Origin: Micropruina sp.
Lineage (GTDB): Bacteria; Actinomycetota; Actinomycetes; Propionibacteriales; Propionibacteriaceae
Length of the DNA stretch: 38,268 bases
Direction of reading: 5' to 3'
Assembly (NCBI RefSeq): GCF_027492755.1
Contig: NZ_JAPUED010000220.1
Coordinates: 1 to 38,268 of the forward strand
Numbering within the stretch: position 1 is the stretch's first letter; every line of letters begins with the position of its first letter. Positions 7,242 through 27,132 of this stretch are shown in pieces. The notes beneath the pieces are model-generated. The model ran no database searches. It was not told the origin of the DNA and worked only from the letters and a program-made list of their open reading frames with translations. Position numbers and translations under genes: made by a program.

Positions 7242-7364
7242 CACCACAGGGCAGGGGCCGGGATCGTGATTCGGGGGAACACGAACCAGGTCGGGGAAAC
7301 TGCCTAGTGGTGAGACGGATCGAGCCGGGTCTGGACGCAGGAGGAAGCGTCCGGAGCCCGGCTC
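7242..7364 (+). ncRNA. Candidate structured RNA downstream of pnkp
   Basis: Three helices follow one another. Segment 7242-7254 (CACCACAGGGCAG) pairs with 7300-7312 (CTGCCTAGTGGTG) with one mismatch. It encloses a hairpin TCGTG (7264-7268)/CACGA (7280-7284) with a purine-rich loop. Then 7322-7338 pairs with 7347-7364 over 17 bp with one bulged G and an 8-nt loop, AGGAGGAA. On the other strand that loop reads TTCCTCCT, which is complementary to Shine-Dalgarno sequences. No promoter is clear and I recognise no known RNA family. Strand and transcription are uncertain. Confidence 0.35.
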
Positions 7365-7428
7365 TCCGCAATTGCGCTGGGTGAGACCTCTCCGTCAGCC
7401 CTGCGCGGTCAGTCCGTTCCGGCTTCTT

Positions 7429-7503
7429 CGTCATCGCGGGGCTTGCCCCGGGATCTCGTTGCGCTGGATAGGTGCGGAGATCCCGGCGTTCGCCGGAATG
7501 ACG
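7429..7503. repeat. Inverted pair of REP-like palindromes
   Basis: CGTCATCGCGGGGCTTGCCC at 7429-7448 begins one unit, with stem CGGGGC/GCCCCG. A second, inverted unit ends in CCGGCGTTCGCCGGAATGACG at its right side, with stem CCGGCG/CGCCGG. The inner edges GGGATCTC and GAGATCCC are complementary, and the outer edges CGTCA and TGACG are as well. The whole thus folds as a two-headed structure typical of paired REP (BIME) elements. Confidence 0.75.
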
Positions 7504-7519
7504 GGTCCTCGCCGATAGG

Positions 7520-7556
7520 GTCTCGACAAGCTCGACCAACGGTTGGGGCAAGCTCG
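7520..7556. repeat. TCGACAAGCTC-type intergenic palindrome
   Basis: GTCTCGACAAGCTCGACCAA is followed by GGGCAAGCTCGACTG, next to the stop of the GH38 gene. The core TCGACAAGCTC and its complement GAGCTTGTCGA recur at 16595-16603 (partly), 18527-18580 and 19730-19826, so this is one member of a dispersed family in this window. Confidence 0.65.
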
Positions 7557-7569
7557 ACTGACGGGGCTG

Positions 7570-10500
7570 TTAAGCCCGGGTGATCCGGAGGGTTTGCACC
7601 TGGAACGGACGCAAGGTGAGGCCGACCGACACCCCGTCGTCCGTCGCCGAGTGGGCGACCGGGTCGCCGGGGCGCTCCAACAGGTCCGCGGCCCGCACGG
7701 AGGCTACCGGCAGATCGACGGTCAGTTCAGTCGATGCCCGGCCGCCGGAGGCCTCGTAGACCCGGACGATCAGGTCACCCGAGCGGTCGTCGGCGAGCTT
7801 CACCGCGCTGATCAGCACCCGCGGGTCGCTGGACGTCACCAACGGCGCCAGTTCGGCTCCCCGCGCCGGGCGGGCCGGCACGTTGACGGCCCAGCCCAGT
7901 TCGGTGGCCCGGGCCGGGTCGGCGCCGAAGGCGAGCGCGAACCGCATCTGCTGGACGCCGAGGTCGGTCCGCGGGTCGGGGAAGCGCGGCGCTCGCAGCA
8001 TCGAGAACCGGACGTCGGAGACCACGGTGCCGCCGCGCTGCGATCGCACCACGTCGAAGCCGTAGGTCGAATCGTTCGCGAATGCGACGCCGAAGCCGGG
8101 CTCCTGGACCAGGAACCAGCGCTGGGCGTGGGTTTCGAACCGGGCGTTCTCCCACGAGGTGTTGTCGTGGGTGGCGCGCGACTGGAAGCCGAACTGGGTC
8201 TCGGCGATCGCGGTGTCGGCGAACACGTCGATCGGGAAGGCCAGCTTGAGGAACTTCTCGGTCTCCTGCCAGTCGACCGTGTTGTCGATCAGCAGCGCCC
8301 GGCCGTCCGCGGACAGCGACAGCCGCTGCTCGATGGACGAGGCACCGAACGAACGCCGTACGACGATCGCGTCGCCGTCCAGCCGGACCTCGTCGGCGGT
8401 CTCGATGTCGCGGCGCATCGTGCGGTAGCTGTTGTCGACGTCCCAGGCGTCCCACAGGTTCGGGAAGTCCTGGTGCAGCTGCAGCAGGTTGCCCCGCTCG
8501 CCGGCCGGGATCGCATCCCGTCCGGACGCCAGGTCGACTGCGCTCACCACGTGCCCGGCCGCGTCCAGTTCGATTCGGACGGCGTCGCTGGCCAGCACGA
8601 AACCGTCCCCCGCCACCGAGGCAGTGGTGCCGGCGGGGGTGACCGGAAGGCTGACGGCCCCCGCCGCCACGCCCGATTGAGCGATCGGTGCGGCGTTGAC
8701 CAGGAGGTTCGGCTCTGCGGCGTCCAGCTCGACGCCCAATGCCGCCAGCGAGTCGGCGATGATCTGGTTAAGGGTCTGCGCCACCAGCGCGTAGCGGACG
8801 ACCGCCTCGCGATGCACCCAGGCGATCGAGGTGCCGGGCAGGATGTCGTGGAACTGCAGCAGCAGCACTTCGTGCCAGGCCCGGTCGAGCGTCTCGTACG
8901 GGTACGGATGCCCCGTCCGGACGGCCGCGACGCTGGCCCACAGCTCGGCCTCGAACAGCAGCTGCTCGCTGCGCCGGTTGCCCTGCTTCATCTTGTGCTG
9001 GGTGGTGTACGTGGCGCGGTGCCGCTCCAGGTACAGCTCGCCCTTCCACACCGCAGGCTCGGGCAGCTCGGCCCTGGCCCGCTCGAAGAAGGCGTCCGGG
9101 GTCTCCCAGGTGACCTTGGCGCTGCCCTCCAGGTCGGCCAGCCGCTTGGCCCGGGCGATCATCTCGCGGGTGGTGCCGCCACCGCCGTCGCCCCAGCCGG
9201 TCGGCGCCAGCGAGGACGAGCCGATCGACTTCTCCTTGAAGTTGCGGTCGGCGCGGGCCACCTCGTCACCGGACAACTGGGAGTTGTAGGTGTCCATCGA
9301 CGGGAAGTGGGTGAAGATCCGCGAGCCGTCGATGCCCTCCCAGTGGAAGGAGCTGTGCGGGAAGATGTTCCGCTCGTTCCAGGAGATCTTCTGCGTCAGG
9401 AACCATTCGAAACCGGCCCCGACAAGCAGCTGCGGCAGTGCCGCCGAGTAGCCGAAACTGTCCGGCAGCCAGGCCCCGCGGCATTCGATTCCGAACTCGT
9501 CGCGGAAGAAGCGCTGCCCGTACAGGAACTGCCGGATCATCGCCTCGCCGCCGGGCAGCACGGCGTCGGCCTCGACCCACATGCCGCCGACCGGGACGAA
9601 ACGCCCGTCGGCGACCGCCTGCTTCACCCGGGCGTACACCTCGGGGCGATGTTCCTTGATCCAGGCGTACTGCTGGGCGCTCGACATGGCGTAGATGAAG
9701 TCGTCGTGCTCGTCGAGCAGGGTGACCATCGAGCTGGTGGTGCGGGCCACCTTGCGGACGGTTTCGCGCAGCGGCCACAGCCACGCCGAGTCGATGTGGG
9801 CGTGGCCGACCGCGGTGATCCGGTGCGCGGAGGGCGCGGCCGGGCTGCTCAGCACCTCGACGAGTTCGGCCCGGCCCGCGGCGGCGGTGCCGGCGATGTT
9901 CTGCAGGTCGACGGCGTCCAGCGCCCGATCGAGCGCGAACAGGATGCGTGCCCGACGGGCGGAGCTCGCGTCCAGCTGCTGGGCGAGCTGCAGCAGCACC
10001 TCGACGTCGTGGACGAGTTCGAACACCTCGGTCTCGAAGACCACGACGTCGGCACGGCGCAGCCGGTACAGCAGCTCTTCTCCGGCGGTGGCCCATTCCC
10101 CCTTCTCGGTGGGCTGGAACGGCACATAGTCGAGCAGCACCGGATTGGACGCCGCCTCGACGTAGAACTCGATCGGCTCACCGCCGGTGGCCTCGCCGAC
10201 CACCGGGATCCACTGTGCGCGCGGGTGCAGGGACCGCACCGGGCTGCCGTCCGCGCGGTAGACCAGGCCCTCGGCCTGGAAGCCGGTCATGTTGATGTCG
10301 AAACCGAGGTCGAGCAGCACCTCGACCCGCTCGCCGGCGAACTCGGCGGGCACCTGGCCGGTGACTCGGAACCAGGTGGTGTCCCAGGCCCGCCCCCACG
10401 GCTCGCCCGGCTGAGTCGGCGCGTACTCGGCGGCCAGCCCGTCGGCGACTGCGATCGGTTCGCCGCCCACCCGGTGCGCGGCGATCATCAGCGGATGTGG

Positions 10501-10581
10501 CCGCGAATGGATGGCGGGGCGCAGCCGCTCTTCGAGGACGCGGACCGCGCGGGCAAGCGTCAGATCCTGGTTGTTGTGCAT
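7570..10581 (-). CDS. Alpha-mannosidase, glycoside hydrolase family 38
   Basis: A 1003-residue GH38 enzyme that removes alpha-linked mannose from mannosides or N-glycan-type oligosaccharides. It has a zinc-site motif GHAHIDSAW (about 258-266), a nucleophile aspartate in WLPDSFGYS (about 373), and a zinc ligand in LLQFHDILPG. The C-terminal beta-sandwich follows (RDAIPAGERGNLLQLHQDFP onward). There is no signal peptide or membrane segment, so it acts in the cytoplasm. The ATG (10579-10581) overlaps the stop of the GH5 gene by one base, so the two are translationally coupled. A much longer in-frame extension to 11271 would run through GH5 and is rejected. It is expected to follow the operator-bearing promoter in front of GH5. 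Confidence 0.93.
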   Translation of the reverse strand: MHNNQDLTLARAVRVLEERLRPAIHSRPHPLMIAAHRVGGEPIAVADGLAAEYAPTQPGEPWGRAWDTTWFRVTGQVPAEFAGERVEVLLDLGFDINMTGFQAEGLVYRADGSPVRSLHPRAQWIPVVGEATGGEPIEFYVEAASNPVLLDYVPFQPTEKGEWATAGEELLYRLRRADVVVFETEVFELVHDVEVLLQLAQQLDASSARRARILFALDRALDAVDLQNIAGTAAAGRAELVEVLSSPAAPSAHRITAVGHAHIDSAWLWPLRETVRKVARTTSSMVTLLDEHDDFIYAMSSAQQYAWIKEHRPEVYARVKQAVADGRFVPVGGMWVEADAVLPGGEAMIRQFLYGQRFFRDEFGIECRGAWLPDSFGYSAALPQLLVGAGFEWFLTQKISWNERNIFPHSSFHWEGIDGSRIFTHFPSMDTYNSQLSGDEVARADRNFKEKSIGSSSLAPTGWGDGGGGTTREMIARAKRLADLEGSAKVTWETPDAFFERARAELPEPAVWKGELYLERHRATYTTQHKMKQGNRRSEQLLFEAELWASVAAVRTGHPYPYETLDRAWHEVLLLQFHDILPGTSIAWVHREAVVRYALVAQTLNQIIADSLAALGVELDAAEPNLLVNAAPIAQSGVAAGAVSLPVTPAGTTASVAGDGFVLASDAVRIELDAAGHVVSAVDLASGRDAIPAGERGNLLQLHQDFPNLWDAWDVDNSYRTMRRDIETADEVRLDGDAIVVRRSFGASSIEQRLSLSADGRALLIDNTVDWQETEKFLKLAFPIDVFADTAIAETQFGFQSRATHDNTSWENARFETHAQRWFLVQEPGFGVAFANDSTYGFDVVRSQRGGTVVSDVRFSMLRAPRFPDPRTDLGVQQMRFALAFGADPARATELGWAVNVPARPARGAELAPLVTSSDPRVLISAVKLADDRSGDLIVRVYEASGGRASTELTVDLPVASVRAADLLERPGDPVAHSATDDGVSVGLTLRPFQVQTLRITRA

Positions 10582-11780
10582 CAAGCCTCCACGGTCGCGG
10601 CCAGGGTCACCCGAGGGTGCCGGCCGGCACGGGCAATGTCCATGTAACGCTCCCAGAACGCGCCGCCCGGTGCCAGATCGCGGCGGCTCACGTCGGTGGG
10701 GTCGAGCAGCAGTCGCGGCGGGTCGGCGTCGTCGACGCTCTCCCGGCGGCGTCGGCGCAACTCGTCCATCGCCCGGGCGAGCACCCGGCCCTCGTTCTTG
10801 ATCGTGCCGTGCTCGTCGATCAGGCCGAGGTCGTACTCCAGTTCGGGGAAGTCGGCCAGTGACCGGCTGACGTCGTGCGAGCACCACCAGGTGATGCCGT
10901 ACAGCTGCGGGGTGTCGGCGAGCTGCTCGACGGTGGCCTCGATGAACGGTGCGACGGACGCCTGCGGCAGCACGTTGCGCGGCGCACCCACCTCCTGCAC
11001 CCAGACCGGGCGATCCGGGTCGGCCTGGAACGCCCGGGCGATCTCGGTCAGGTAGCGGGCGTGCGCCCGGGTCTCGAAGGCGTCCGGGCCGTAGACCTGG
11101 GCGGTGCCGTTGAACACCCACGAATGCAGCACGGTCATGTCGCCCAGGTTCGCGGCGTGCGCCGGGGTGAAAGGCTGGGTGTCGTCGTACCAGGTGGCGT
11201 CGTAGCAGGCGTGCAGCACCTGGACGTCGGGGGCGCCGGTGCGCAGCGCACCCAGCATCGCGTCGAGCCACGCGCTCACGTCACCCTCGGACGCCGGATA
11301 CGGCTCGGGATGGACGGTGCCGGTGAACTGGTTGACCTCGTTGCCGACGGTCAGTCCGAGCAGGTTGGGGTGACCGGCACAGGCTCGGGCCAGCGCGGTC
11401 AGGTAGACGGCCGTGGAGGCGACCACGTCGGGGTCGGTGAAGAAGCCGCGGCGATGCCAGCTGGTCAGCCAGGCCGGCACGAAGTCGAAGCTGGACAGGT
11501 GACCCTGCAGGCCGTCGACCCAGACGTCCAGGCCGCGCTCGTCGGCGAGCTCGATCACCTTCTCGACATCGGCCAGGCCGCCGGGGCGGATCAGTGTCCG
11601 GTTCGGCTGCAGCAGTGGCCAGAGCGGGAAGACCCGGACGTGGTCGACGCCCAGTTCGGCGATGGTGTCGAAGTCGCGGGCCACGTCGTCGGCGCTGAAA
11701 TCGAGCCAGTGGTGGAACCATCCGACGCGTGGGGTGTAGTTCACCCCGAAGCGGACCGGGGCTCCAGCAGGGGCCGTCAT
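10581..11780 (-). CDS. Glycoside hydrolase family 5, probable subfamily 18 beta-mannosidase
   Basis: A 399-residue (beta/alpha)8 enzyme. The N terminus FGVNYTPRVGWFHHW and the blocks VRVFPLWPLLQPNRT and DGLQGHLSSFDF match what I know of GH5_18, bifidobacterial beta-mannosidases that split the Man-beta-1,4-GlcNAc core of N-glycans. The acid/base is E148 in TVGNEVNQ and the nucleophile E263 in VWVQEVGAP, as expected for clan GH-A. No signal peptide is present. I choose ATG 11780 because a TTGACA/TAAAGT promoter ends 7 bp before it, which leaves no room for an upstream start and implies a leaderless transcript; no Shine-Dalgarno sequence is visible. It is the first gene of the GH5-GH38 operon. 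Family is firm, subfamily is inferred from recall and context. Confidence 0.82.
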   Translation of the reverse strand: MTAPAGAPVRFGVNYTPRVGWFHHWLDFSADDVARDFDTIAELGVDHVRVFPLWPLLQPNRTLIRPGGLADVEKVIELADERGLDVWVDGLQGHLSSFDFVPAWLTSWHRRGFFTDPDVVASTAVYLTALARACAGHPNLLGLTVGNEVNQFTGTVHPEPYPASEGDVSAWLDAMLGALRTGAPDVQVLHACYDATWYDDTQPFTPAHAANLGDMTVLHSWVFNGTAQVYGPDAFETRAHARYLTEIARAFQADPDRPVWVQEVGAPRNVLPQASVAPFIEATVEQLADTPQLYGITWWCSHDVSRSLADFPELEYDLGLIDEHGTIKNEGRVLARAMDELRRRRRESVDDADPPRLLLDPTDVSRRDLAPGGAFWERYMDIARAGRHPRVTLAATVEA

Positions 11781-11784
11781 CGGC

Positions 11785-11815
11785 GTAACTTTACCGATTG
11801 AGTATCGCCTGTCAA
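11785..11815 (-). promoter_or_regulatory. Promoter and LacI-type operator of the GH5-GH38 operon
   Basis: On the minus strand a perfect -35, TTGACA (complement of 11810-11815), is followed after 16 bp by TAAAGT (complement of 11788-11793), 7 bp before the GH5 ATG. Between and into the -10 lies TCAATCGGTAAA (complement of 11790-11801). It is centred on CG like LacI-family operators and shares its left half TCAATC with the sites at 13171 and 20785. Binding there would block RNA polymerase directly. Confidence 0.65.
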
Positions 11816-12014
11816 AGGCTCTGTCCGGGGGCCGCCGCGCGGGCTCGGGCGGGGTCACCGGAACGTCGGCGGCCGACCGTGCCGGACCCAGCCGTCCGCG
11901 CGCCTCGGAACCGCTCGGCCGGGCCGTGCGGGAGCGGGGCGAGGCAGCCCCGGCCGCCCTTCCGCCACTACGTTAAGGTTGGCCCGGAAACAGGCACGAC
12001 CGGGAGGCGGAGCA

Positions 12015-13055
12015 ATGGCGGCCAGAGAGGCGGGTATTCCCCGTTCCGGCCGCGTCACGATTTCCGACATCGCCCGTCGGGCGGGTGTCACCAGCGGTGC
12101 CGTTTCGCTCGCAATCAACGGCAAACCGGGCGTTTCCGATATCACTCGGGCCCGCATCCTCAGGATCGCCGACGAGATGCGCTGGCGTCCGAATCACGCC
12201 GCCAAAACGTTGCGCGGGCAGAGCCCGCATTCCATCGGACTGGTGCTGACCAGGCCCGAAGAGGTGGTCGGCGAAGAGGTCTTCTTCACCAAATTCCTCG
12301 CCGGCGTCCAGTCGGTGCTGAGTCAGCGGGGCTATTCGCTGCAGTTGCAGATGGCTACCGACCTGGCCTCCGAGACGGCCATCCATGCCGACTGGATCGC
12401 CGACGGCCGGGTGGACGGCATCCTCGTCCTCGACCCGCGGGTGGACGATCCACGGGTGGCCGCGCTGCTCGAACTCGGCCTGCCTGCGGTGATCGTCGGC
12501 GGCGACCAGGACGGCGCCGCCTTGACCAGCGTCCGCACCGACGACGGGCAATTCATGCGGGTGGTGTTCGACCATCTGCTCGCCCTGGGGCATCAGCGAA
12601 TCGGTTACATCACCGGCGACCAGAGCTTCGCCCATATTCGCCGGCGCATCGCTGCTTTCACCGACTACACCCTCGAATCGGGTATCTGGGGCATCACCCT
12701 GGCGGCAGATTTCGTGCCGCAACAGGCCAAGGAAGCCACCCGAAAACTCATGTCGTCACCCAAGGGCCCGACCGCGCTGATTTTCGACAGCGAAGTGATG
12801 GCCATCGCCGGAATGGCGACGTTGAGCGAGTTGGGATTCGCGGTGCCGGGCGATGTTTCGGTGCTGTCGTGGGAAGACTCGGCAACCTGTCGGGTGCTGC
12901 ACCCGACGCTGACCGCGCTGAATCGTGACGCCGCGGCATTGGGTCGCCAGGCCGCGACCGGCATGCTGCGACTGCTCGACCGTGAACCGGCCGACGAGCC
13001 GGCGGTCGTCGCCAGCGTGGTGCCCCGCGAGTCGACGGCGCCCCCGGCGTCCTGA
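12015..13055 (+). CDS. LacI family transcriptional regulator of the mannose-glycan locus
   Basis: A 346-residue LacI/GalR repressor. The N-terminal helix-turn-helix (about 14-40: VTISDIARRAGVTSGAVSLA) is followed by a hinge helix (NHAAKTLRGQ, about 60-69) and a periplasmic-binding-protein-like sensor domain (SIGLVLTRPEE onward, with VDGILVLDPRVDD, HQRIGYITGD and VSVLSWEDS). The start is ATG 12015 with GGGAGG at 12002-12007; an earlier ATG at 11979 lacks a ribosome site. It sits between the GH5-GH38 operon and the importer operon. The TCAATCG elements in three nearby promoters are its most likely operators. I see no copy in front of the gene itself. The inducer is probably a mannose-containing oligosaccharide, by context. 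Confidence 0.92.
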   Translation: MAAREAGIPRSGRVTISDIARRAGVTSGAVSLAINGKPGVSDITRARILRIADEMRWRPNHAAKTLRGQSPHSIGLVLTRPEEVVGEEVFFTKFLAGVQSVLSQRGYSLQLQMATDLASETAIHADWIADGRVDGILVLDPRVDDPRVAALLELGLPAVIVGGDQDGAALTSVRTDDGQFMRVVFDHLLALGHQRIGYITGDQSFAHIRRRIAAFTDYTLESGIWGITLAADFVPQQAKEATRKLMSSPKGPTALIFDSEVMAIAGMATLSELGFAVPGDVSVLSWEDSATCRVLHPTLTALNRDAAALGRQAATGMLRLLDREPADEPAVVASVVPRESTAPPAS

Positions 13056-13159
13056 TCCGCGCCGACTTCCAACTGACGTTCCGACAACTGACGTTTCCGA
13101 TCCGCCGAGCCCGGAGGCTCGCCCCCTGGTCTCTGCGAGCCCGATCGGTGGGCCGTCCC

Positions 13160-13188
13160 TTGCACTCAACTCAATCGATGTAGTAACT
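13160..13188 (+). promoter_or_regulatory. Promoter and LacI-type operator of the importer operon
   Basis: TTGCAC (13160-13165) and GTAACT (13183-13188) are spaced 17 bp and could be -35 and -10, though the -10 is weak. TCAATCGATGTA (13171-13182) fills the spacer. Its core TCAATCGAT is the same as in the manA/ROK site, which points to repression by the adjacent LacI protein. A short direct repeat, CAACTGACGTT, lies upstream at 13070-13080 and 13085-13095. Confidence 0.6.
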
Positions 13189-13240
13189 TCCACGCCACCA
13201 TGCGCCGTCGCTTGGCGGCCTTGCACAACTATGAGGAGGC

Positions 13241-14533
13241 ATGATGAGACGCTTCACCGGACTCGTCACCCTGGTGGCATCGGCCGCACTCGCTCTGACT
13301 GCTTGCACGGGCGGCGGCGCAGCCCCCGCTCCGGCACAGTCCAGCGGTGGTGGCAGCGGCAAGCTCTCCGGAACGGTGAAGTTCCAGAGCTGGTCGCTGA
13401 AGAACGAGACGTTCAGCCCCTACTTCGAGGCGCTCTTCGCCTCGTTCGAGAAGGAGACCGGCGTCAAGGTCGAGTGGCTCGACCAGCCCGGCGAGGGTTA
13501 CCAGGAGAAGGTGCTCGCCCAGGCCAATTCCGGTTCGTTGCCCGACGTGATCAACCTGCCGCCGGACATCGCGTTCCCGCTGGCCAAGGCCGGCGTGCTG
13601 CTCGACGTCAACGCGGCCGATTCGTCCCTGGCCTCGACCTTCGTGCCGGGCGCCTGGGAGGCCTACTCCTACCCGGGCCTGACCGGCACGTTCGGCATTC
13701 CCTGGTACCTGGGCACCGACCTCAGCTGGTGGAACGGCACCGAGCTGAAGAAGTACGGCGTCGACACCGACAAGCTGCCGACCACCAATGAAGAACTGAT
13801 CGAGCTGGCCAAGAAGGTCGGCACCGAGTCCAAGGGCAAGCTGCCGGTGCTGTCGTCGATGCCGACGATCGACCTGTTCTCGTCCAGCGGCGTCCCGGTG
13901 ATGAACGACGCCGGAGACTTCGTCTTCAACACCCCGCAGGCCGCCGCGATCGTCGATCAGTTCCGCGACGCCTACAAGGCCGGCGGTGTCCCCCCGGAGG
14001 CGCTGACCGGTGACTTCGGTGGCAATGCCGACAACTTCAAGGCGGGCAAGGTCGCCTACACCACGGCCACCTCGACCTTCGCCACCGATCTGGCGAAGAA
14101 CGCGCCGACGATCGCCAAGGGCGTCATCGCCACGCCGCGTATCGGCGACGCCCCGCTGTTCGTCCAGGGCGTCTCGGTCGCGGCCAACTCGGCCAACAAG
14201 GACGCCGCGCTCGCCTTCGCGAAGTACCTGACCAACACGGCCAACCAGGTCGCGTTCTGCAAGATCGCCGTCGGCTACATGCCGGGCACGGTCGAGGGCA
14301 GCGCCGATACCGCGTCGCTCAGCGCGGGAGTCAAGGACGAGTTGCAGTTGAAGGCCATCGGCATCGTGGTCGAGTCCATGAAGACCGCGCGGGTGCTCAC
14401 CCCCGTGCAGTGGACCGGTGCGATGAAGACCTACATGGACCAGCAGCTCGCCCTCGCCCTCAAGGGAGAGATCGGTTCGCAGGAGGCGCTCGACAAGATC
14501 GTCAAGTACGCCAACACGAACAAGGTCGAGTGA
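13241..14533 (+). CDS. Sugar ABC transporter substrate-binding lipoprotein
   Basis: A 430-residue extracellular solute-binding protein of the maltose/oligosaccharide type (family 1). It has a lipoprotein signal with lipobox LTAC and lipidated C22, a Gly/Ser/Ala/Pro linker, then the mature domain starting KLSGTVKFQSWS. It contains the typical segment YQEKVLAQANSGSLPDVINL. Two ATGs occur at 13241 and 13244; AGGAGG (13234-13239) leaves 1 or 4 bases, so the second may be used. It is the first gene of an operon with two permeases. The likely ligand is a mannose-containing oligosaccharide, judged from the GH38, GH5 and GH92 neighbours and the shared operator, not from binding residues. Confidence 0.92.
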   Translation: MMRRFTGLVTLVASAALALTACTGGGAAPAPAQSSGGGSGKLSGTVKFQSWSLKNETFSPYFEALFASFEKETGVKVEWLDQPGEGYQEKVLAQANSGSLPDVINLPPDIAFPLAKAGVLLDVNAADSSLASTFVPGAWEAYSYPGLTGTFGIPWYLGTDLSWWNGTELKKYGVDTDKLPTTNEELIELAKKVGTESKGKLPVLSSMPTIDLFSSSGVPVMNDAGDFVFNTPQAAAIVDQFRDAYKAGGVPPEALTGDFGGNADNFKAGKVAYTTATSTFATDLAKNAPTIAKGVIATPRIGDAPLFVQGVSVAANSANKDAALAFAKYLTNTANQVAFCKIAVGYMPGTVEGSADTASLSAGVKDELQLKAIGIVVESMKTARVLTPVQWTGAMKTYMDQQLALALKGEIGSQEALDKIVKYANTNKVE

Positions 14534-14575
14534 CCTGAACCGCCTAGCGATCCCGGGAAGGAGAAGGAGGAACCC

Positions 14576-15457
14576 ATGAAGTCACACAAGTGGTTCACGC
14601 CGTGGCTGCTGGTGGCACCGGGTGTCATCTGGGTGCTGGTGTTCGGCCTGTGGCCGTTCTTCAACACCGTGGTGCTGAGCTTCACCAACGCGCGCCCACT
14701 GCAAGCGGGACGGTTCATCGGACTGGAGAACTATGCCCGGATCGGCTCGGACGAGCAGTTCGGCTACGCGCTGACGACGAGCCTGATCTACATGGTCGTC
14801 TGCATTCCGTTGCTGACGATCCTGCCGTTGCTGGTCGCGCTGCTGGTGGAGAAGACGATCCCCTGGATCACCTTCTTCCGCACCACCTTCTACTTCCCGG
14901 TGATCGCGTCGGTGGTTGTGGTCGCCCTGATCTGGAGTTGGCTGTTCGACACCAAGGGCTTGATCAACGGCGCCCTCGAGGCGATGGGTGTGGTCGACAA
15001 CCCGGTTCCGTTCCTGGTCGACCGCTGGTGGCTGCTGATCACCGCCATCCTGCTGACCGTCTGGAAGGGCCTCGGCTACTACATGGTGGTCTACCTGGCC
15101 GCTCTGGGTAACTCCAACAAGGAGTTGCACGAGGCAGCCGCGCTGGACGGCGCCGGAGCCTTCCAGCGGTTCCTGACGGTCACCCTTCCGGCGGTCCGGG
15201 GCGCGATGGTGCTGATCATGGCGCTGGTGGCGGTCTCCGCACTGCGCGTCTTCACCGAGTTGCAGGTGCTCTCCAACGGCACCGGCGGCCCTGGTGGCCA
15301 GTCCATGTCGCTGGTGATGTTGATCAAGACGGTCGGTTCAGGGCTGACCGGCAACGTCGGCTACGCGTCGGCGCTGAGCGTCGTGCTGTTCCTGATCACG
15401 GCGTTGCCGCTGCTGGCGATCGCCTGGATGAACCGCGAGAAGGAAGCGAAGGCCTGA
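14576..15457 (+). CDS. Sugar ABC transporter permease, MalF type
   Basis: A 293-residue inner-membrane permease with six predicted helices, starting SHKWFTPWLLVAPGVIWVLV. The ATPase-contact loop EAAALDGAGAFQRFLTVTLP (EAAxxDGA motif) is near residue 185. It forms the channel with the next gene and is fed by the upstream lipoprotein. GGAGAAGGAGG lies just before ATG 14576. The operon has no ATP-binding gene, so it probably borrows a shared ATPase of the MsiK type, as many actinobacterial sugar importers do. Confidence 0.93.
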   Translation: MKSHKWFTPWLLVAPGVIWVLVFGLWPFFNTVVLSFTNARPLQAGRFIGLENYARIGSDEQFGYALTTSLIYMVVCIPLLTILPLLVALLVEKTIPWITFFRTTFYFPVIASVVVVALIWSWLFDTKGLINGALEAMGVVDNPVPFLVDRWWLLITAILLTVWKGLGYYMVVYLAALGNSNKELHEAAALDGAGAFQRFLTVTLPAVRGAMVLIMALVAVSALRVFTELQVLSNGTGGPGGQSMSLVMLIKTVGSGLTGNVGYASALSVVLFLITALPLLAIAWMNREKEAKA

Positions 15458-15458
15458 C

Positions 15459-16394
15459 ATGACCACAACCGTGGAAGAAACCCCGCAGTCCATCGAGATC
15501 GCGGCGCGGGCCGTCAAGCCCAAGAAGGTCAAGGAGCCGGCCTACCGGCGCAAGGGCTCGAGCGATTTCCTCAAGCCCACGCTCGGAGGCCTGATCGTCC
15601 GGTACGTGCTGCTGGCGATCATGACAGTGATCGTGGTCGGCCCGCTGATCTTCCAGTTGGCGACGTCCTTCAAGGGCCCGCTCGACGACATCTACAACTT
15701 CCCGCCCAGCCTGATCCCGACGGACCCGACCTTCCAGAACTACGTGCGGGTGCAGGACTTCATTCCGATCTACCTGTACGCCTGGCACTCGTTGCTGGTG
15801 GCGGTGGGCACCGTGATCACCAACGCGGCGTTCGCCACCTTCGGCGGGTACGCGTTGGGCTGCATGGAGTTCAAGGGAAAGAAGATCGTCTGGGGCATCC
15901 TGCTCTCGACGATGCTGCTGCCCGGTGAGGTCACGATCACCAGCCAGTTCCTGACCATCAAGGCGTTCGGACTGGCCGACACCCTGTGGGGCGTCTTCCT
16001 GCCGGGTGCGGTCGGTGCGATGAACGTGATGCTGATCGCCACCGCCTGCCGGGCGATCCCGCAGGACATGCTGGCCGCGGCCACCATCGACGGTGCCACC
16101 ACCTGGCAGCGGATTCAGCACATGGTGTGGCCGAACATCAAGGGCATGGTCAGCGTGGTCGCGATCTTCTCGTTCATCGGTGCCTGGGACGACTTCCTGT
16201 GGCCGCTGATCGTGCTGTCGGATCCGGCCAAGTACACCCTGACGGTCGGCATGGCGTTCCTCAGCGGCAACTTTGCCGATCCGCGACTGGTCGCGGCCGG
16301 TACGATGATCGCGCTCGTCCCGATCGTGATCCTGTTCTCGGTGATGCAGAAGCACTTCTTCGCCGGTGTCGAGGAGGGCGCTGTCAAGGGATGA
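15459..16394 (+). CDS. Sugar ABC transporter permease, MalG type
   Basis: A 311-residue partner permease. A charged cytoplasmic N-terminal stretch of about 40 residues rich in lysine (VKPKKVKEPAYRRK) precedes six helices (YVLLAIMTVIVVGPLIFQLA first). The EAA-type loop is LAAATIDGATTWQRIQHMVWP with the DGA core. The start ATG 15459 is one base after the stop of the previous gene, so the two are translationally coupled. It should carry the second substrate-path half and contact the ATPase. Confidence 0.93.
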   Translation: MTTTVEETPQSIEIAARAVKPKKVKEPAYRRKGSSDFLKPTLGGLIVRYVLLAIMTVIVVGPLIFQLATSFKGPLDDIYNFPPSLIPTDPTFQNYVRVQDFIPIYLYAWHSLLVAVGTVITNAAFATFGGYALGCMEFKGKKIVWGILLSTMLLPGEVTITSQFLTIKAFGLADTLWGVFLPGAVGAMNVMLIATACRAIPQDMLAAATIDGATTWQRIQHMVWPNIKGMVSVVAIFSFIGAWDDFLWPLIVLSDPAKYTLTVGMAFLSGNFADPRLVAAGTMIALVPIVILFSVMQKHFFAGVEEGAVKG

Positions 16395-16401
16395 TTGTCT
16401 G

Positions 16402-19400
16402 GTGACGACCCCGGTACTGCGGCCCGATCCAGGGCCGCCGGAGCCACCATCGTCTCGCCCCCGAGCAGGAGTGCTCGGGGGCGAGGTGTTCTCCTTCTCC
16501 TACCGGCCCGCGGACGGCGTCCAGCGACTTCCGCTGGTCTCCGTCCTCCCGGCGGACGCCGGTGTCTTGCCGGTCGGCACCCGGTCGCTGGTCGAGCTTG
16601 TCGAGAGCTCTTTGGTGGCCGCCGACACCGAACTGCACTGGGCCTTCTACGCCGACGACGAAGCGGCGTTGCGAGCGCCCTGGGCGTCCCTGGCGGTCTG
16701 CCCGGACGTGGTCTTCGATGACGGCTCCCGGCTGTCCGACGGGCTCCCGGATCGCGGGCCCGCCATCGACCGGTACGGCTTCCCGGTCACGCCGTCCGAT
16801 CAGTTCGCGGCGCGCTGGAGCATGCCGCAGCAATGGAACGCCGACACGGTCTCGCTCGCCCCCTGGGCCGGACGCAGGATCAGCGCCATCGAGGTCGTCC
16901 TCGGCGACGGGTCGTTGACCGGCGACGCCGCCGCTGAGCCGGCGACGGGCTGGGTCGAGGTCGTCGTGCGGCGAGCAGAGGCACTTGCGGGCTGCCCGGC
17001 CGAACGGGTCGACACCCGGCGCGGCACGCATGCGGGCGCCCGGTTCTCCCGCGGGAACACGCTTCCCGCCGTCGCGCACCCGCACGGCTTCGTCTTCCTC
17101 ACCCCGGCCACGGACGCCGCCGACACCCGCTGGCCGTACCGCTGGGGTGTCCACGACGAACCGGCCGGACGCCGGCTGGCGGCGTTGCAGACCTCGCATC
17201 AGCCGAGCCCGTGGATCGGCGATCACGGGGTGCTGCAGTTCCTGCCGTACCTGCCCACGGCGGGTGGGCCGTCCGGTCACGGCGGTCACATCGTGCCGGG
17301 CACCGAGCTGGCCCGGCCGCACCGGTACGCCGCGACGTTGGTCGAGGGCATCGAGGTCGAGGGCGCGAGCACATCTGCGGTGGTCGCGGTGCGGGTGCGT
17401 GGCGCCTGGGCCGGTCTGCTGGTCGGTTGGCCGCCGGGCGACGGCTCACTGGCGCTGGAGTCGCTCCCGGACGGCAGGGTGACGGTCCGAGGCTGGATCG
17501 GCGAGCGTCCGGACGCCGCCTGGGGCAACGCGCCCCGGATGTACGTCTACGGCGAGACCGCGGAGCCAGCCGCGGTAGAGACCTCCGGCGAGCCGTACGG
17601 GCTGGGGGTGATGGCACCCGGCGAACTGGAACTGCGGGTCTCGACATCCTTCCTCTCCGCCGAGCAGGCGCGCCGCACCTTCGACCTGGAGGCGCCCTGG
17701 ACGTCCGGCTTCGACGAGCTGGTGGCGGCGAGCCGGGCTCGCTGGGACGCGATCTGCGGCGCCGTCGAACTGCCGGCGCCCGCCGATGACCGGTACGCCC
17801 TAGCCCATCGCGAACTGCGGGCCACGCTCGCGCACGCCCTGTACCGGCTGAACCTCTACCCGAACACCGCGTCCGAGAACGCCGGGACCGCTGACGCGCC
17901 CGTGTGGCGCTTCGCCGACGTCTTCACCCGCGCTGAACCACACGGCGAGGAGGTCACCGGCGCACCCGTCGCGTCCGGACGGCTGGTGGTGAACAACGGC
18001 TACTGGGACACCTATCGCACCGTCTGGCCGCTGCTCGCTCTGCTGGACGCGGACGTCACCGGGGAACTGCTGGACGGGCAGCTGGAGCAGGTCCGCCGCG
18101 GCGGTTGGACGGCGCGGTGGAGCGGTCCCGGCTACATCGATTGCATGGTCGGTACCTCCAGCGATCAGGTGTACGCCCAGGCCGCCCGGCTCGGCGTCGG
18201 CGGTTTCGACCGCGAGCTGGCCTACGAGTCGGGTTGGCGCAACGCCTGCGAACCCAGCCCGGACCCCCGTACCGGACGAGCGGGAACGGCGTCCGCGCGG
18301 TTCACCGGCCATGTTCCACGTGAAATCCACGCCGGGTTGTCCTGGACCATCGAGGCCGCGATCGGGGACGCCGCGCTGGGCCGGTTCGCCGCACTCCTCG
18401 CCGAGACGTCGTCGGAGCCCGTGCGCTACCGGGCACATGCCCGCTACTTCGCGAACCGTTCCCTGTCCTACCGGCAGCTGTTCGATCCGGAGACCGGCTT
18501 CTTCCGCGGCCGTTCCGCCGCTGGCCGAGCTTGTCGAGACCCTGGTGAATTCAACCCTGACAAGGTGTTTCGACAAGCTCAACCATCGGCGGAGCAGGGT
18601 GATCTGCATCCCGTCGGCGACTTCGATCCCGCGGTCTGGGGCGGTGACTACGTCGAGACCAACGCCTGGGGCATGTCGGCCTCCGCGGTGCACGACGGCG
18701 CCGGCCTGGCGGAGCTGTTCGGTGGCCCGGCGGCATTGCGGGAGCATCTGGACCGGCTGTTCGCCGAGCCGGAGACGATCGTGGCGCCGTACCATCCCGA
18801 TCAGGTGGTGCACGAGCAGCTCGAGGCAAGGGCCTTGCGCTCGGGCATGTGTGCGCTGTCGAACCAGCCGGCGCACCACCTGCCGTTCATGTACCTGCAC
18901 ACCGATCAGCCCTGGCGCGCCGCACCACTGGCGCGGGAACTGGCCGGACGGCTGTTCGCCGGCGGGCACATCGGCCAGGGCTTCCCCGGCGACGAGGACA
19001 ACGGCGAGATGAGCGGCTGGTGGCTGTGGGCTTTGCTCGGCCTCTATCCGCTCGATCCGGGCAGCGGCGAGCTGGTCATCGGGGCGCCGCTGGTCGACGA
19101 CCTCACCCTGCGTCGCGATGTGGGTCCGCTACGAGTACGGGTGAACCGCGAGTCGCCGGACGCGTCGTACCTGGCAGCCGCGTCCTGGAACGGGCGTGTC
19201 CTTAGCCGACCCCGGCTCACCCCCGCTGAGCTCGCCGAACCGGGGGTGCTCGAGGTCGACCTGGTCGATGAACCGCCGGCCGACGCTCTGCTCTGGCAGG
19301 AGCCGGCGGCCACCGTCAAGGAGTGGCAACCGGATCTGTGTCATCCCGAGTTCGCCCTCGCGAGCTCCGGTGTGAACGCTCAGGTTGCCTTCGACGACGG

Positions 19401-19707
19401 TGCCGACCCAGATGGCTGCTGCACTGTGCAGCCGGGTCAGTGGCTGGGCCAGGACTTCGGTGTCCCGCGACGTGTGACCGACCTCACGGTCACAACCCTG
19501 GACCCGGCGGATGCTCACTGCTTCGTGGTCGAGCACAGCGAGGACGGCCTGGTCTGGCAGCAAGCTTCCGCCACGCACCACGAGCCGCTGCCAGCGAACC
19601 GGACGACCCCATTTCAGCTAGCCACACCGGTATCGAGGCGCTACTGGCGAGTTCGGGTGACGGCCCCACTCCGGCTACGGCAGCTCGAGTTCTTCGACCT
19701 CGACTGA
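16402..19707 (+). CDS. Glycoside hydrolase family 92 alpha-mannosidase with discoidin-like ends
   Basis: About 1100 residues. GH92 enzymes are calcium-dependent exo-alpha-mannosidases, most often alpha-1,2 specific. The GH92 beta-sandwich begins at FSRGNTLPAVAHPHGFVFL. The catalytic barrel holds WGGDYVETNAWGM and, near residue 865, GDEDNGEMSGWW, the family's acid-residue motif, then LLGLYPLDPGSGELVIGAP. The last 130 residues (ASSGVNAQVAFDDG, WLGQDFGVPRRV) look like an F5/8 type C carbohydrate-binding domain. There is no signal peptide, so it is probably cytoplasmic. GTG 16402 follows the permease stop by 7 bases. GTG 16486 is an alternative, because a strong hairpin fills 16454-16485 and the residues before it are proline-rich and look unconserved. 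About 25 residues near 705-732 look inserted. Confidence 0.85.
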   Translation: MTTPVLRPDPGPPEPPSSRPRAGVLGGEVFSFSYRPADGVQRLPLVSVLPADAGVLPVGTRSLVELVESSLVAADTELHWAFYADDEAALRAPWASLAVCPDVVFDDGSRLSDGLPDRGPAIDRYGFPVTPSDQFAARWSMPQQWNADTVSLAPWAGRRISAIEVVLGDGSLTGDAAAEPATGWVEVVVRRAEALAGCPAERVDTRRGTHAGARFSRGNTLPAVAHPHGFVFLTPATDAADTRWPYRWGVHDEPAGRRLAALQTSHQPSPWIGDHGVLQFLPYLPTAGGPSGHGGHIVPGTELARPHRYAATLVEGIEVEGASTSAVVAVRVRGAWAGLLVGWPPGDGSLALESLPDGRVTVRGWIGERPDAAWGNAPRMYVYGETAEPAAVETSGEPYGLGVMAPGELELRVSTSFLSAEQARRTFDLEAPWTSGFDELVAASRARWDAICGAVELPAPADDRYALAHRELRATLAHALYRLNLYPNTASENAGTADAPVWRFADVFTRAEPHGEEVTGAPVASGRLVVNNGYWDTYRTVWPLLALLDADVTGELLDGQLEQVRRGGWTARWSGPGYIDCMVGTSSDQVYAQAARLGVGGFDRELAYESGWRNACEPSPDPRTGRAGTASARFTGHVPREIHAGLSWTIEAAIGDAALGRFAALLAETSSEPVRYRAHARYFANRSLSYRQLFDPETGFFRGRSAAGRACRDPGEFNPDKVFRQAQPSAEQGDLHPVGDFDPAVWGGDYVETNAWGMSASAVHDGAGLAELFGGPAALREHLDRLFAEPETIVAPYHPDQVVHEQLEARALRSGMCALSNQPAHHLPFMYLHTDQPWRAAPLARELAGRLFAGGHIGQGFPGDEDNGEMSGWWLWALLGLYPLDPGSGELVIGAPLVDDLTLRRDVGPLRVRVNRESPDASYLAAASWNGRVLSRPRLTPAELAEPGVLEVDLVDEPPADALLWQEPAATVKEWQPDLCHPEFALASSGVNAQVAFDDGADPDGCCTVQPGQWLGQDFGVPRRVTDLTVTTLDPADAHCFVVEHSEDGLVWQQASATHHEPLPANRTTPFQLATPVSRRYWRVRVTAPLRLRQLEFFDLD
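16454..16485. terminator. 14-bp perfect hairpin near the 5' end of the GH92 gene
   Basis: CTCGCCCCCGAGCA (16454-16467) and TGCTCGGGGGCGAG (16472-16485) are exactly complementary around a 4-nt loop, GGAG. The following GTGTTCTCC is not a clean U-tract. By strength and position, 60 bases after the permease stop, it could end or weaken transcription between the importer genes and GH92, or protect the upstream mRNA. If GTG 16402 is the real start, this stem is translated. Confidence 0.55.
18514..18593. repeat. REP-like palindrome inserted in the GH92 coding sequence
   Basis: Outer arms TCCGCCG (18514-18520) and CGGCGGA (18587-18593) and inner arms GAGCTTGTCGA (18527-18537) and TCGACAAGCTC (18570-18580) are perfectly complementary. 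The inner arms belong to the same family as the intergenic copies at 7520 and 19730. The encoded stretch (GRACRDPGEFNPDKVFRQAQ) separates FFRGRSAAG from FDPAVWGGDY, two pieces that are usually close together in GH92 proteins. The frame is kept. Confidence 0.7.
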
Positions 19708-19726
19708 CCGTGCGCACATTCGAGGG

Positions 19727-19826
19727 TTGAGCTTGTCGAAACCCGGTGAGTGATCTCGACAAGCTCGATCAACGGTGGCAGGGACGAGACGGCGTCCGAG
19801 GACGAGGAATCTCGACACGCTCGATC
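19727..19826. repeat. Cluster of TCGACAAGCTC-type palindromes between GH92 and ROK genes
   Basis: TTGAGCTTGTCGAAA (19727-19741) faces TCTCGACAAGCTCGATCAA (19754-19772), and a diverged third copy, TCTCGACACGCTCGATC, lies at 19810-19826. The first pair can form an 11-bp stem. The cluster sits between convergent genes and may serve as a bidirectional terminator or simply be a REP insertion site. Confidence 0.7.
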
Positions 19827-19848
19827 AGCGGAGGGTGAAGAAGCGGGG

Positions 19849-20769
19849 TCAGACCAGCAGGTCGGAGCGGTGCACAAGGGCGGCAGCGCCGATCAGCGGG
19901 GCGTCGCCGGCCAGGGACGCCCGCTCGACCCGGACGGCGCGGGCGAACGCGTTCACCGCACGAGAATCCACCGCCGCGCGGATGTGATCGACGTAGTCGT
20001 CGGCGACCAGCGAGAACCCGCCGCCGACCACGGCCAACTCCAGGTCGAGCAGGGTCGCGGCGTTCACCACGCCGGTGCCGATGAAGGTGGCGGACCGCAC
20101 CACGGCGGCGACGGCGATCGGGTCGCCCGCGGCGTAGGCGGCGGCCAGCTCTTCGCCGTCCGACCCGGTCCAACCCTGGGAGCGGGCCCAGGTCACGGTG
20201 TGCGGCCCGGACGACAGCTCCTCGACAGTCGCCGCGGCCGCCGAGCCCTCGACCCGGTCGACGATGACCTGGCCGAGGTGCCCGGCGTTCCCGGTGGCCC
20301 CGGCGATCACCCGACCGTCGGAGATGATGCCGCCGCCCACACCGGTGGAGACGACGAAGACCATGGCGTTGCTGACCCCGCGCGCCGCGCCCAGCCACAA
20401 CTCGGCCAGCGCGATGCAGGTGCCGTCGAGACGCAGCCGGACGTCGTCCAGCCCGGACGCCTCACGCACCACGTCGACGATCGGGAAGTCGCGCAGGCCG
20501 GGCAGGTTGATCGGCGAGATCGCGCCGAGCGGCAGGTTCAACGGGCCGGCCGAACCGATGCCGGCGGCGGCGACGTCCGACCAGTGCGGCGAGTCGAGTG
20601 CGGGCCGCAGCGCGGAGGCGATCGAAACCGCTGCGGCGTCCGGGGTCGAGGCGCCGGTGGCGCCCATTGCGGCGCGGCCGCGGGTGCCCTCGATAATGGT
20701 GCCGTCGGTGCCGATGAGCGCCGCCTCGACCTTGGTTCCGCCGAGATCGATAGCCAATGCAGCCGTCAT
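19849..20769 (-). CDS. ROK family sugar kinase, probably mannokinase
   Basis: A 306-residue ROK-fold kinase with the phosphate-binding N terminus AIDLGGTKVEAAL (about 5-17), GIGSAGPLN, and the second phosphate motif STGVGGGII. No helix-turn-helix precedes it, so it is an enzyme and not a ROK repressor. It lacks the usual zinc-binding cysteines: after GNAGHLGQVIVD, where most ROK kinases have a CxCGxxGCxE-like loop, it reads GSAAAATVEELSSG. In this locus, next to manA and under the same operator, phosphorylation of mannose (or GlcNAc) released from glycans is the best guess. The start ATG 20769 is 16 bp from the operator at 20785. Substrate is inferred. Confidence 0.85.
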   Translation of the reverse strand: MTAALAIDLGGTKVEAALIGTDGTIIEGTRGRAAMGATGASTPDAAAVSIASALRPALDSPHWSDVAAAGIGSAGPLNLPLGAISPINLPGLRDFPIVDVVREASGLDDVRLRLDGTCIALAELWLGAARGVSNAMVFVVSTGVGGGIISDGRVIAGATGNAGHLGQVIVDRVEGSAAAATVEELSSGPHTVTWARSQGWTGSDGEELAAAYAAGDPIAVAAVVRSATFIGTGVVNAATLLDLELAVVGGGFSLVADDYVDHIRAAVDSRAVNAFARAVRVERASLAGDAPLIGAAALVHRSDLLV

Positions 20770-20779
20770 GGCGACACGG

Positions 20780-20802
20780 TATCCTAAATCGATTGAGGAG
20801 GG
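20780..20802. promoter_or_regulatory. Shared operator between ROK kinase and manA
   Basis: The 43-bp gap between two divergent starts holds TAAATCGATTGA (20785-20796), whose reverse complement TCAATCGATTTA matches the sites at 11790 and 13171 in its TCAATCG half. TATCCT (20780-20785) could be the manA -10. GAGGAGGG (20795-20802) is the manA ribosome site and overlaps the operator. One bound repressor would silence both genes. Confidence 0.65.
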
Positions 20803-20812
20803 TAGGACTTCG

Positions 20813-22009
20813 TTGTTTATCGAGCTTTCGAATACGCCGCGGCACTATGCGTGGGGTTCCTACGACGGCATCGCCGGCTTCACCGGGCAGCAGCCGAGCG
20901 GGGAACCCGAGGCCGAACTGTGGTTCGGCACCCATCCGGGTTCACCGAGCCTGACGCCGCGCACCTTCCCACCCACCGAGCCCGGCCACGCGACGCTGCG
21001 CGACTGGGTCGCCGCCGAGCCGGAACTGCTGCTCGGGAACCCGGACGCCACCGAACTGCCGATCCTGCTGAAGGTGCTGGCCGCCCGGACGCCGCTGTCG
21101 CTGCAGGTGCATCCCAGCCCGGAACAGGCCGAGCAGGGCTACGCCGACGAGGTCGCCCGGGGAATCGAACCCGACGCGTTCATCCGCAGCTACAAGGACC
21201 CGCATCCGAAGCCCGAGATCATCGTCGCCGTCACCGAGTTCGAGGGACTGTGCGGCTTCCGGCCCAGCGCCGAGGTGGCCGCATTCGCCGCCGACCTGGC
21301 GGCACTGGCACCGCAACCGAGCCCAGGGGTGGCCCAACTGCTTGAGCTATTGGCCGATCCCACCGCGATGGAGCCGGTGGTCGACTGGTTGTTGTCCGGT
21401 GAGGCGTCGGCCGCCGAGTGTGTCGCCGAGGTGGTCGCGCTGGCCGGCTCGGACGCCGCCGCCACTGCGCCCAGTGCGGCCACCTTCCACACCATCGGCG
21501 AGCTGGCGGAGCACTACCCGGGCGACCCGGGCGTGGTGGTCGCCGCGCTGCTCAACCAGACGGCGCTGCGGCCGGGGGAGTGCATGTTCGCCGCCGCGGG
21601 CGTCCTGCACGCCTACCTGCGCGGCGTCGGCATCGAACTGATGACCGCCAGCGACAACGTGCTGCGCGGCGGGCTGACCCCCAAGCACGTCGACACCGGC
21701 GAACTGCTGCGGGTGCTGTCCTTCGAGCAGGGCGAACCGGCCCTGCTGGTGCCGGGACGTCCGGCCGAGAACGTGACCGTGTACGCGCCGCCGGCACCCT
21801 TCGAACTCGCTGTCGTCGACCTGGCCGGCAGCACCGAGCAGCTGCATGGTGGGCCGGCGATCCTGCTGGTCGAACGCGGCCCGGTGACGCTCACCGGCGC
21901 GGAGGCGTCCGTCACCCTGGGGCGGGGGCAGGCGGTGTTCGTCCCGGCGTCCGAGAGCAAGGTGATCCTCAGCGGCACCGGACGAGTGTGGCTGGCCAGC
22001 GCCGGCTGA
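20813..22009 (+). CDS. manA: Mannose-6-phosphate isomerase, class I
   Basis: A 398-residue type I phosphomannose isomerase that converts mannose-6-phosphate to fructose-6-phosphate. The zinc-site pieces are LSLQVHPSPEQ (about 93-103), KPEI in HPKPEIIVA (about 132) and HAYLRGVGIELM (about 265). The latter runs into the family signature ASDNVLRGGLTPKHVD. I start at TTG 20813 because the protein then begins LFIELSNTPRHYAWGS, the normal family N terminus, with GAGGAGGG 10 bases before it. A longer frame upstream runs antisense through the ROK gene and is not real. It completes the route from imported mannose to glycolysis. Confidence 0.94.
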   Translation: MFIELSNTPRHYAWGSYDGIAGFTGQQPSGEPEAELWFGTHPGSPSLTPRTFPPTEPGHATLRDWVAAEPELLLGNPDATELPILLKVLAARTPLSLQVHPSPEQAEQGYADEVARGIEPDAFIRSYKDPHPKPEIIVAVTEFEGLCGFRPSAEVAAFAADLAALAPQPSPGVAQLLELLADPTAMEPVVDWLLSGEASAAECVAEVVALAGSDAAATAPSAATFHTIGELAEHYPGDPGVVVAALLNQTALRPGECMFAAAGVLHAYLRGVGIELMTASDNVLRGGLTPKHVDTGELLRVLSFEQGEPALLVPGRPAENVTVYAPPAPFELAVVDLAGSTEQLHGGPAILLVERGPVTLTGAEASVTLGRGQAVFVPASESKVILSGTGRVWLASAG

Positions 22010-23641: not shown

Positions 23642-26750
<3,109 letters not shown>

Positions 26751-26811
26751 CCCGAACCCGACGCCGCCGTCCGTCAACGGCGACAGACACAACCACAAGT
26801 GAGGAATGACC

Positions 26812-27105
26812 ATGAAGGTGTTGCTGATCTGCTCGGCAGGAATGTCCACGAGCCTGCTGGTGAACAACATGCTGAAGTTCGCCGAGGCCGGCGACGCGGT
26901 CGACGCGCTGCCGTTCGGCGAGCTCGAGGCCAAGATCGCCGACTACGACGTCGTACTGCTCGGCCCGCAGATCCGGTTCAAGCTCTCCGACGTCGAGAAG
27001 GTGGCTGCCGCGCACGGCAAGCCCGCCGAAGTCATCGACATGAGGGTGTACGGAACGATGAACGGCAAAGCCGCGATGGAGCAGGCCCGACGCCTGCTCG
27101 CCTGA
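26812..27105 (+). CDS. PTS lactose/cellobiose-type EIIB
   Basis: A 97-residue EIIB with the phospho-cysteine C7 in the loop ICSAGMSTS, the hallmark of this class, and the conserved LLGPQIRFKL later. I prefer ATG 26812 because GAGGAA at 26801-26806 is well spaced; ATG 26806 overlaps that site. It accepts phosphate from the EIIA at 23642 and passes it to sugar bound by EIIC. The order IIA-GH1-IIC-IIB-regulator is compact. Confidence 0.93.
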   Translation: MKVLLICSAGMSTSLLVNNMLKFAEAGDAVDALPFGELEAKIADYDVVLLGPQIRFKLSDVEKVAAAHGKPAEVIDMRVYGTMNGKAAMEQARRLLA

Positions 27106-27132
27106 GCATGATCAGGATGGAGAGTTCGCGTC

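Follow-up and report, generated by a model that had tools for sequence, protein, structure and literature searches.

A palindromic promoter motif probably places a high-mannose N-glycan regulon of Micropruina under a LacI-type repressor

A set of 14-bp palindromes in the promoters of a glycoside hydrolase cluster of Micropruina sp. very probably represents the operators of the LacI-type protein encoded within that cluster (12015-13055), which would repress a high-mannose N-glycan regulon until an inducer is present. Three of these sites lie in the window, by which we mean the whole stretch of DNA analysed (38,268 nucleotides, contig NZ_JAPUED010000220.1), and a fourth lies on another contig. 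The regulon is best read as one for high-mannose N-glycan utilisation that comprises Endo H, an ABC importer, GH92, GH38, GH5_18, a ROK kinase and perhaps an extra manA.

The minus strand of the window carries a gene for a GH5_18 exo-beta-1,4-mannosidase (10581-11780) and, downstream in the same operon, one for a GH38 alpha-mannosidase (7570-10581; GH38N, 5.5e-92). The Pfam match of the former to GH5 is under the gathering cut-off (E=1.1e-4). Among PDB entries its best match is ScGH5_18 (7lr7, E=5.9e-134), and BlGH5_18 and an exo-beta-1,4-mannosidase (6gvb) are matched as well; the protein is thus predicted to be a subfamily 18 beta-mannosidase. The lacI gene on the plus strand (12015-13055, start taken from the alignment) encodes the helix-turn-helix TISDIARRAGVTSGAVSLAING, and its product matches PF00356 (HTH) and PF13377 (periplasmic-binding-like ligand domain), both above cut-off. 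On the same strand stand genes for an ABC solute-binding protein (13241-14533; Pfam, with matches to PDB substrate-binding proteins), two ABC permeases (14576-15457 and 15459-16394; Pfam) and, last in the importer operon, a GH92 alpha-mannosidase (16366-19707, start approximate; GH92, 1.3e-90). A ROK-family sugar kinase (Pfam) is encoded at 19849-20769 on the minus strand, and a second manA, for a type-I mannose-6-phosphate isomerase, at 20813-22009 on the plus strand, with operator 3 upstream. The features by which we recognised an N-glycan locus, namely a GH5_18 and GH38 pair, an ABC importer and a regulator gene, are all present in the window cluster. Another sugar-uptake cluster of the window (23974-29043), with a GH1 glycosidase, a PTS EIIC and a PRD/EIIA-type regulator, stands apart from these genes and lacks the operator.

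An earlier note on this DNA had named three 12-mers as one operator family, and these agree exactly with the DNA in sequence and coordinates. Operator 1 (CTCAATCGGTAAAG, 11789-11802, minus strand, in the GH5_18-GH38 promoter), operator 2 (CTCAATCGATGTAG, 13170-13183, plus strand, in the importer-operon promoter), operator 3 (CTCAATCGATTTAG, 20784-20797, minus strand, between ROK and manA) and the Endo H site are 14-bp imperfect palindromes with a central CG, the best copy being CTCAATCGATTTAG. Operator 1 differs from this consensus at three positions, and its 3' half (GGTAAAG) has weaker symmetry. The heptamer TCAATCG is common to the three sites, as had been claimed, but it does not hold up as their defining core: it occurs five times in the window against 3.9 expected, and 39 of 100 shuffles reach five, whereas the 14-bp motif stands above chance. 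With up to three mismatches the latter gives six strand-matches in the window (palindromes being scored on both strands) against 0.69 expected, and none of 100 shuffles is as high; one of the six (18132-18145) is internal to GH92. Across the 3.74-Mb assembly, the stricter 13-mer CTCAATCGRTNTA has two copies, the importer and the ROK/manA sites (control, 0), and sequences with up to two mismatches to CTCAATCGATTTAG occupy three distinct places, two of them window sites and one upstream of the Endo H gene, a number also returned by the reversed-pattern control (3).

The lacI promoter had been thought to lack the site, and the two approaches that we used agree with this: no match in the window there scores above 5.8, and none appears in the three-genome alignment. 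The level of LacI is therefore probably not self-limited. In Isoptericola one site lies directly before lacI. Outside the window, 25 loci with approximate operator matches were passed through a rough ORF screen; 16 fell inside an open frame (including the Endo H place, whose frame extends upstream of its start) and nine between frames. By Pfam, the genes beside five of these nine (L007, L011, L018, L022 and L024) have no link to glycan degradation. A site of similar score, CTTCAACGATTTAG on contig C117 beside an RNase Y-like gene, was dropped because a pathway link is absent; the candidates ranked in that comparison had already been filtered for resemblance to the window motif.

A consensus scan identified the GH5_18-GH38 promoter as TTGACA-16-TAAAGT (11788-11815, minus strand), with both hexamers kept in three genomes, and operator 1 spans its spacer and −10. 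The predicted transcript start is at or beside the ATG, so the GH5 mRNA is probably leaderless. The importer promoter, TTGCAC-18-TAACTT (13160-13189, plus strand), is not among the results of the consensus scan and was read by eye from the sequence and the alignment; operator 2 is situated in its spacer. Operator 3 overlaps a −10 that can be read as TAGGAT toward ROK and as TATCCT toward manA, and at this place the consensus promoter scan finds nothing on either strand. In the Endo H promoter, TATAGT overlaps the end of the operator. All four operators thus overlap or abut a predicted −10, in keeping with the proposal that the sites are inside or next to core promoters. An operator over or abutting the −10 is in the classic position for steric repression. 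Given this placement, the most likely mode of action is simple repression that an imported oligosaccharide lifts.

The genome search that had been suggested for further sites added one place, which lies in the promoter of a gene for a secreted Endo H homologue. This site, CTCAATCGTTATAG on contig C204, is the sole further place in the organism's own genome with up to two mismatches. A gap of 64 nt separates it from the start of a downstream gene whose product matches Endo H (6.1e-88) and Pfam GH18 and, as judged by eye, has what looks like a secretion leader. The gene is found in two of the six genus genomes, the own genome (G000) and G004, with 85% identity and an identical site in both; none was found in G001, an incomplete MAG. 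Two loci, L032 of Isoptericola sp. BMS4 and L136 of G278, have an Endo H homologue within the cluster, with the variant sites CTTAAGCGCATGAG and CTGTAGCGCTTAAG upstream. As judged from sequence, Endo H would be under the same control as the cluster. The idea that four transcription units form one regulon is therefore supported, but the regulon is wider than first proposed because the unlinked Endo H gene carries the same site, and the membership of manA is uncertain. With the Endo H place included, what had been called a mannoside regulon becomes a high-mannose N-glycan regulon.

Two of the five other genus genomes searched contain a lacI orthologue (G001, 89%; G004, 86%); both are incomplete MAGs, and the own assembly is 85% complete. 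Loss of the sites from relatives that keep the genes had been put forward as evidence against the proposal, and we found that both lacI-bearing relatives keep all three (GH5, importer and ROK). In the three-genome alignments the operators are visible as blocks of conserved sequence. All 14 positions of operator 1 are identical in G000, G001 and G004, and the ROK site of G001, CTTAAACGATTTAG, is changed but still a palindrome. A secreted GH3 gene has the site CTGAATCGCTTGAG directly upstream in G001 (C215) and G004 (two MAG contigs, C330 and C331), at loci L075, L074 and L076, and is a candidate member in these relatives only. Its 90% identical orthologue in the own genome (C201) reads GCGGATCGCCTGAG, with four mismatches, and was rejected as a member there.

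The cluster manA is absent from G001, an incomplete MAG, and the operator beside ROK is kept, which suggests that the operator at the third place follows ROK and leaves the membership of manA uncertain. The operator may act on ROK only, with manA under its own control or a separate promoter; we consider this quite possible, though on balance somewhat doubtful. Consistent with it, G001 retains both the operator and the flanking GGTAGGACT in the absence of manA, and no promoter consensus was found on either strand at operator 3. Against it, the site in G000 and G004 overlaps the near-symmetric TATCCTA, which can be read as a −10 in either direction and is 15 nt ahead of the start codon of manA. 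The window manA is an extra, cluster-specific copy, since a second manA of the same genome (G000:C28:11185-12357) is 41% identical to it. No site was detected upstream of the manA copies elsewhere (G000:C28, G001:C324 and G003:C13), a check that covered these three and left out G002, G004 and G005, where the gene is on the other strand. In G001 (L030/L081) an EamA-family gene follows ROK, and a gene of the same family follows manA in the window; this looks like loss or gain of manA at the spot between them.

We also searched 293 genomes of the order for GH5_18 and obtained 61 with a relative at E<=1e-60; G001 and G004 were not among the listed matches. Twenty of the 61, mostly the best-scoring plus four of f2 g27, were taken as wide stretches, and addition of the Isoptericola locus L032 gave 21. 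Isoptericola and the family relatives have the same ABC importer and regulator layout as the window cluster. A scoring matrix built solely from 11 Micropruina sites had its best match in the entire stretch within a cluster-gene promoter in 17 of these 21 loci, which are related to one another and are not independent trials; such promoter regions account for 2-14% of a stretch. Palindromic column-permuted matrices (300), some of them close to the real one, gave a mean of 3.3 and a maximum of 12. Of the four loci missed, two (L145 and L146) have neither a LacI homologue nor a site. In L143 an equal-scoring site is found in the GH38/LacI promoter, and in L148 the second-best site is upstream of the SBP gene. 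The f2 g27 genomes carry CTAAACCGATTTAG or CTAAATCGGTTTAG immediately before GH5_18. Loci of the AAGCG type score low on the matrix (10-15), and their sites are thus a diverged version. Beside the GH5_18/GH38 cluster of G108 (L148), a CTAAAGCCATTTAG palindrome (7278-7291) is followed after about 20 bp by the start of a protein (7311-8525) that Pfam matches to an EndoS-type leucine-rich repeat.

The sites were compared with the LacI hinge in the loci remaining after six (L139-L144) in which the HTH was unreadable. Loci with the hinge LRG, LSA or LG(G/A) mostly have AA(T/A/C)CG half-sites, with the exceptions of L151, where one half is AAGCG (CTAAAGCGATTTAG), and of some L147 and L148 sites with GCG. 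Loci with LMG or LTG (L032, L135, L136 and L138) have AGCG(C) sites. An apparent shift of operator specificity with the hinge is a lead only, as few loci are involved and the grouping tracks ancestry. We tentatively propose, at a little under even odds, that a dedicated N-glycan-sensing LacI controls the whole pathway, including the unlinked Endo H, across Propionibacteriales and an Isoptericola, and that its operator changed from AATCGATT to AAGCGCTT together with the hinge (R, S or G versus M or T after the hinge leucine). If this is true, the hinge and operator variants would be a natural series for protein-DNA co-evolution.

Another LacI-family or global regulator might bind the sites in place of the local LacI. 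The own assembly encodes 18 LacI-type HTHs and is 85% complete, so that another LacI may be missing, this shape of motif is generic among LacI proteins, and a similar palindrome (CTTTACCGGTATAG) comes just before a paralogue on C99. We nevertheless regard binding by another regulator as improbable. The recognition helix of the window LacI occurs in none of its own paralogues, and the 22 locus LacIs form one group in a tree, separate from 17 of these paralogues, a grouping that is partly built in because the locus sequences had been chosen for their resemblance to the window LacI. Among the genus genomes, the sites at the promoters occur where the lacI orthologue occurs (G000, G001 and G004), and both GH5_18 loci that have no LacI also have no site. 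The second palindrome (CTTTACCGGTATAG or CTTTACCGGTAAAG) is present in five of the six genus genomes (G000:C99, G001:C78, G003:C1, G004:C2 and G005:C1); the copy at L176 (G000:C99:4378-4391) is separated by about 80 bp from the downstream HTH of the C99 LacI paralogue (C99:4474) and is probably that protein's own operator.

It is still harder to credit that the sites resemble one another only by chance, through the AT-rich −10 boxes of a GC-rich genome, a reading already contradicted by the comparative data. The −10 itself does form part of each site and the 7-mer core is at chance level, but the 14-mer statistics and the symmetry argue otherwise, the half outside the −10 is conserved in all lacI-bearing relatives, and composition-matched permuted matrices fail.

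For control by the local LacI, we infer binding, repression and an inducer, along with the enzyme specificities and the leaderless starts, and envisage the following sequence of events. Without inducer, a LacI dimer would sit on the CG-centred 14-bp palindrome at the −10 and block RNA polymerase at GH5_18-GH38, importer-GH92, ROK (perhaps with manA) and the secreted Endo H on another contig. Endo H would clip high-mannose N-glycans off glycoproteins, and the ABC importer would take up the resulting Man(n)GlcNAc. GH92 and GH38 would then strip alpha-mannose, GH5_18 would split Man-beta-1,4-GlcNAc, and ROK and ManA would pass the sugars into glycolysis. The cytoplasmic oligosaccharide or a breakdown product would release the repressor.

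Actinobacterial N-glycan degradation clusters were reportedly treated by Higgins and co-workers in 2021. Central-CG LacI operators are already known, as are N-glycan clusters with GH38 and GH5_18, an importer and a regulator. An even palindrome with a central CG was reported for 1173 of 1303 LacI-family regulators in a survey that states that Actinobacteria are under-represented in it (Ravcheev et al., 2014; PMC4052901). The local sugar regulons described there resemble the present one in having sites upstream of sugar-uptake and hydrolase genes and the repressor gene next to the genes that it controls; PMC4052901 makes no mention of N-glycans (term count 0). Its ManR regulons (mannose and mannosides) are likewise mannose-related and of the LacI family, a comparison made by name alone. 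In Cutibacterium acnes, GH5_18 is described as an exo-beta-1,4-mannosidase of the N-glycan core, and its locus is like that of Micropruina in the GH38 and GH5_18 pair, the ABC importer genes and a regulator gene (PMC6160142). That locus has a GH18 enzyme inside and its secreted enzymes are called dispersed; the portion of PMC6160142 available to us names the transcriptional-regulator gene and gives no operator. The Micropruina system differs in the proposed operator, in the inclusion of GH92 and an extra manA, and in an unlinked Endo H with the same operator. In the literature searched, which was mainly open-access, we found no account of a LacI operator that governs an N-glycan regulon in actinobacteria; what is new is the operator, the inclusion of the unlinked Endo H and the spread across an order.

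These findings offer a testable regulatory logic for the scavenging of eukaryotic glycoproteins by free-living actinobacteria, in which a secreted Endo H is linked to the intracellular pathway through sequence alone. The motif could be used to find further enzymes of the pathway, and its family recurs in relatives whose hinge residues have diverged, a small natural experiment in how LacI proteins select their operators.
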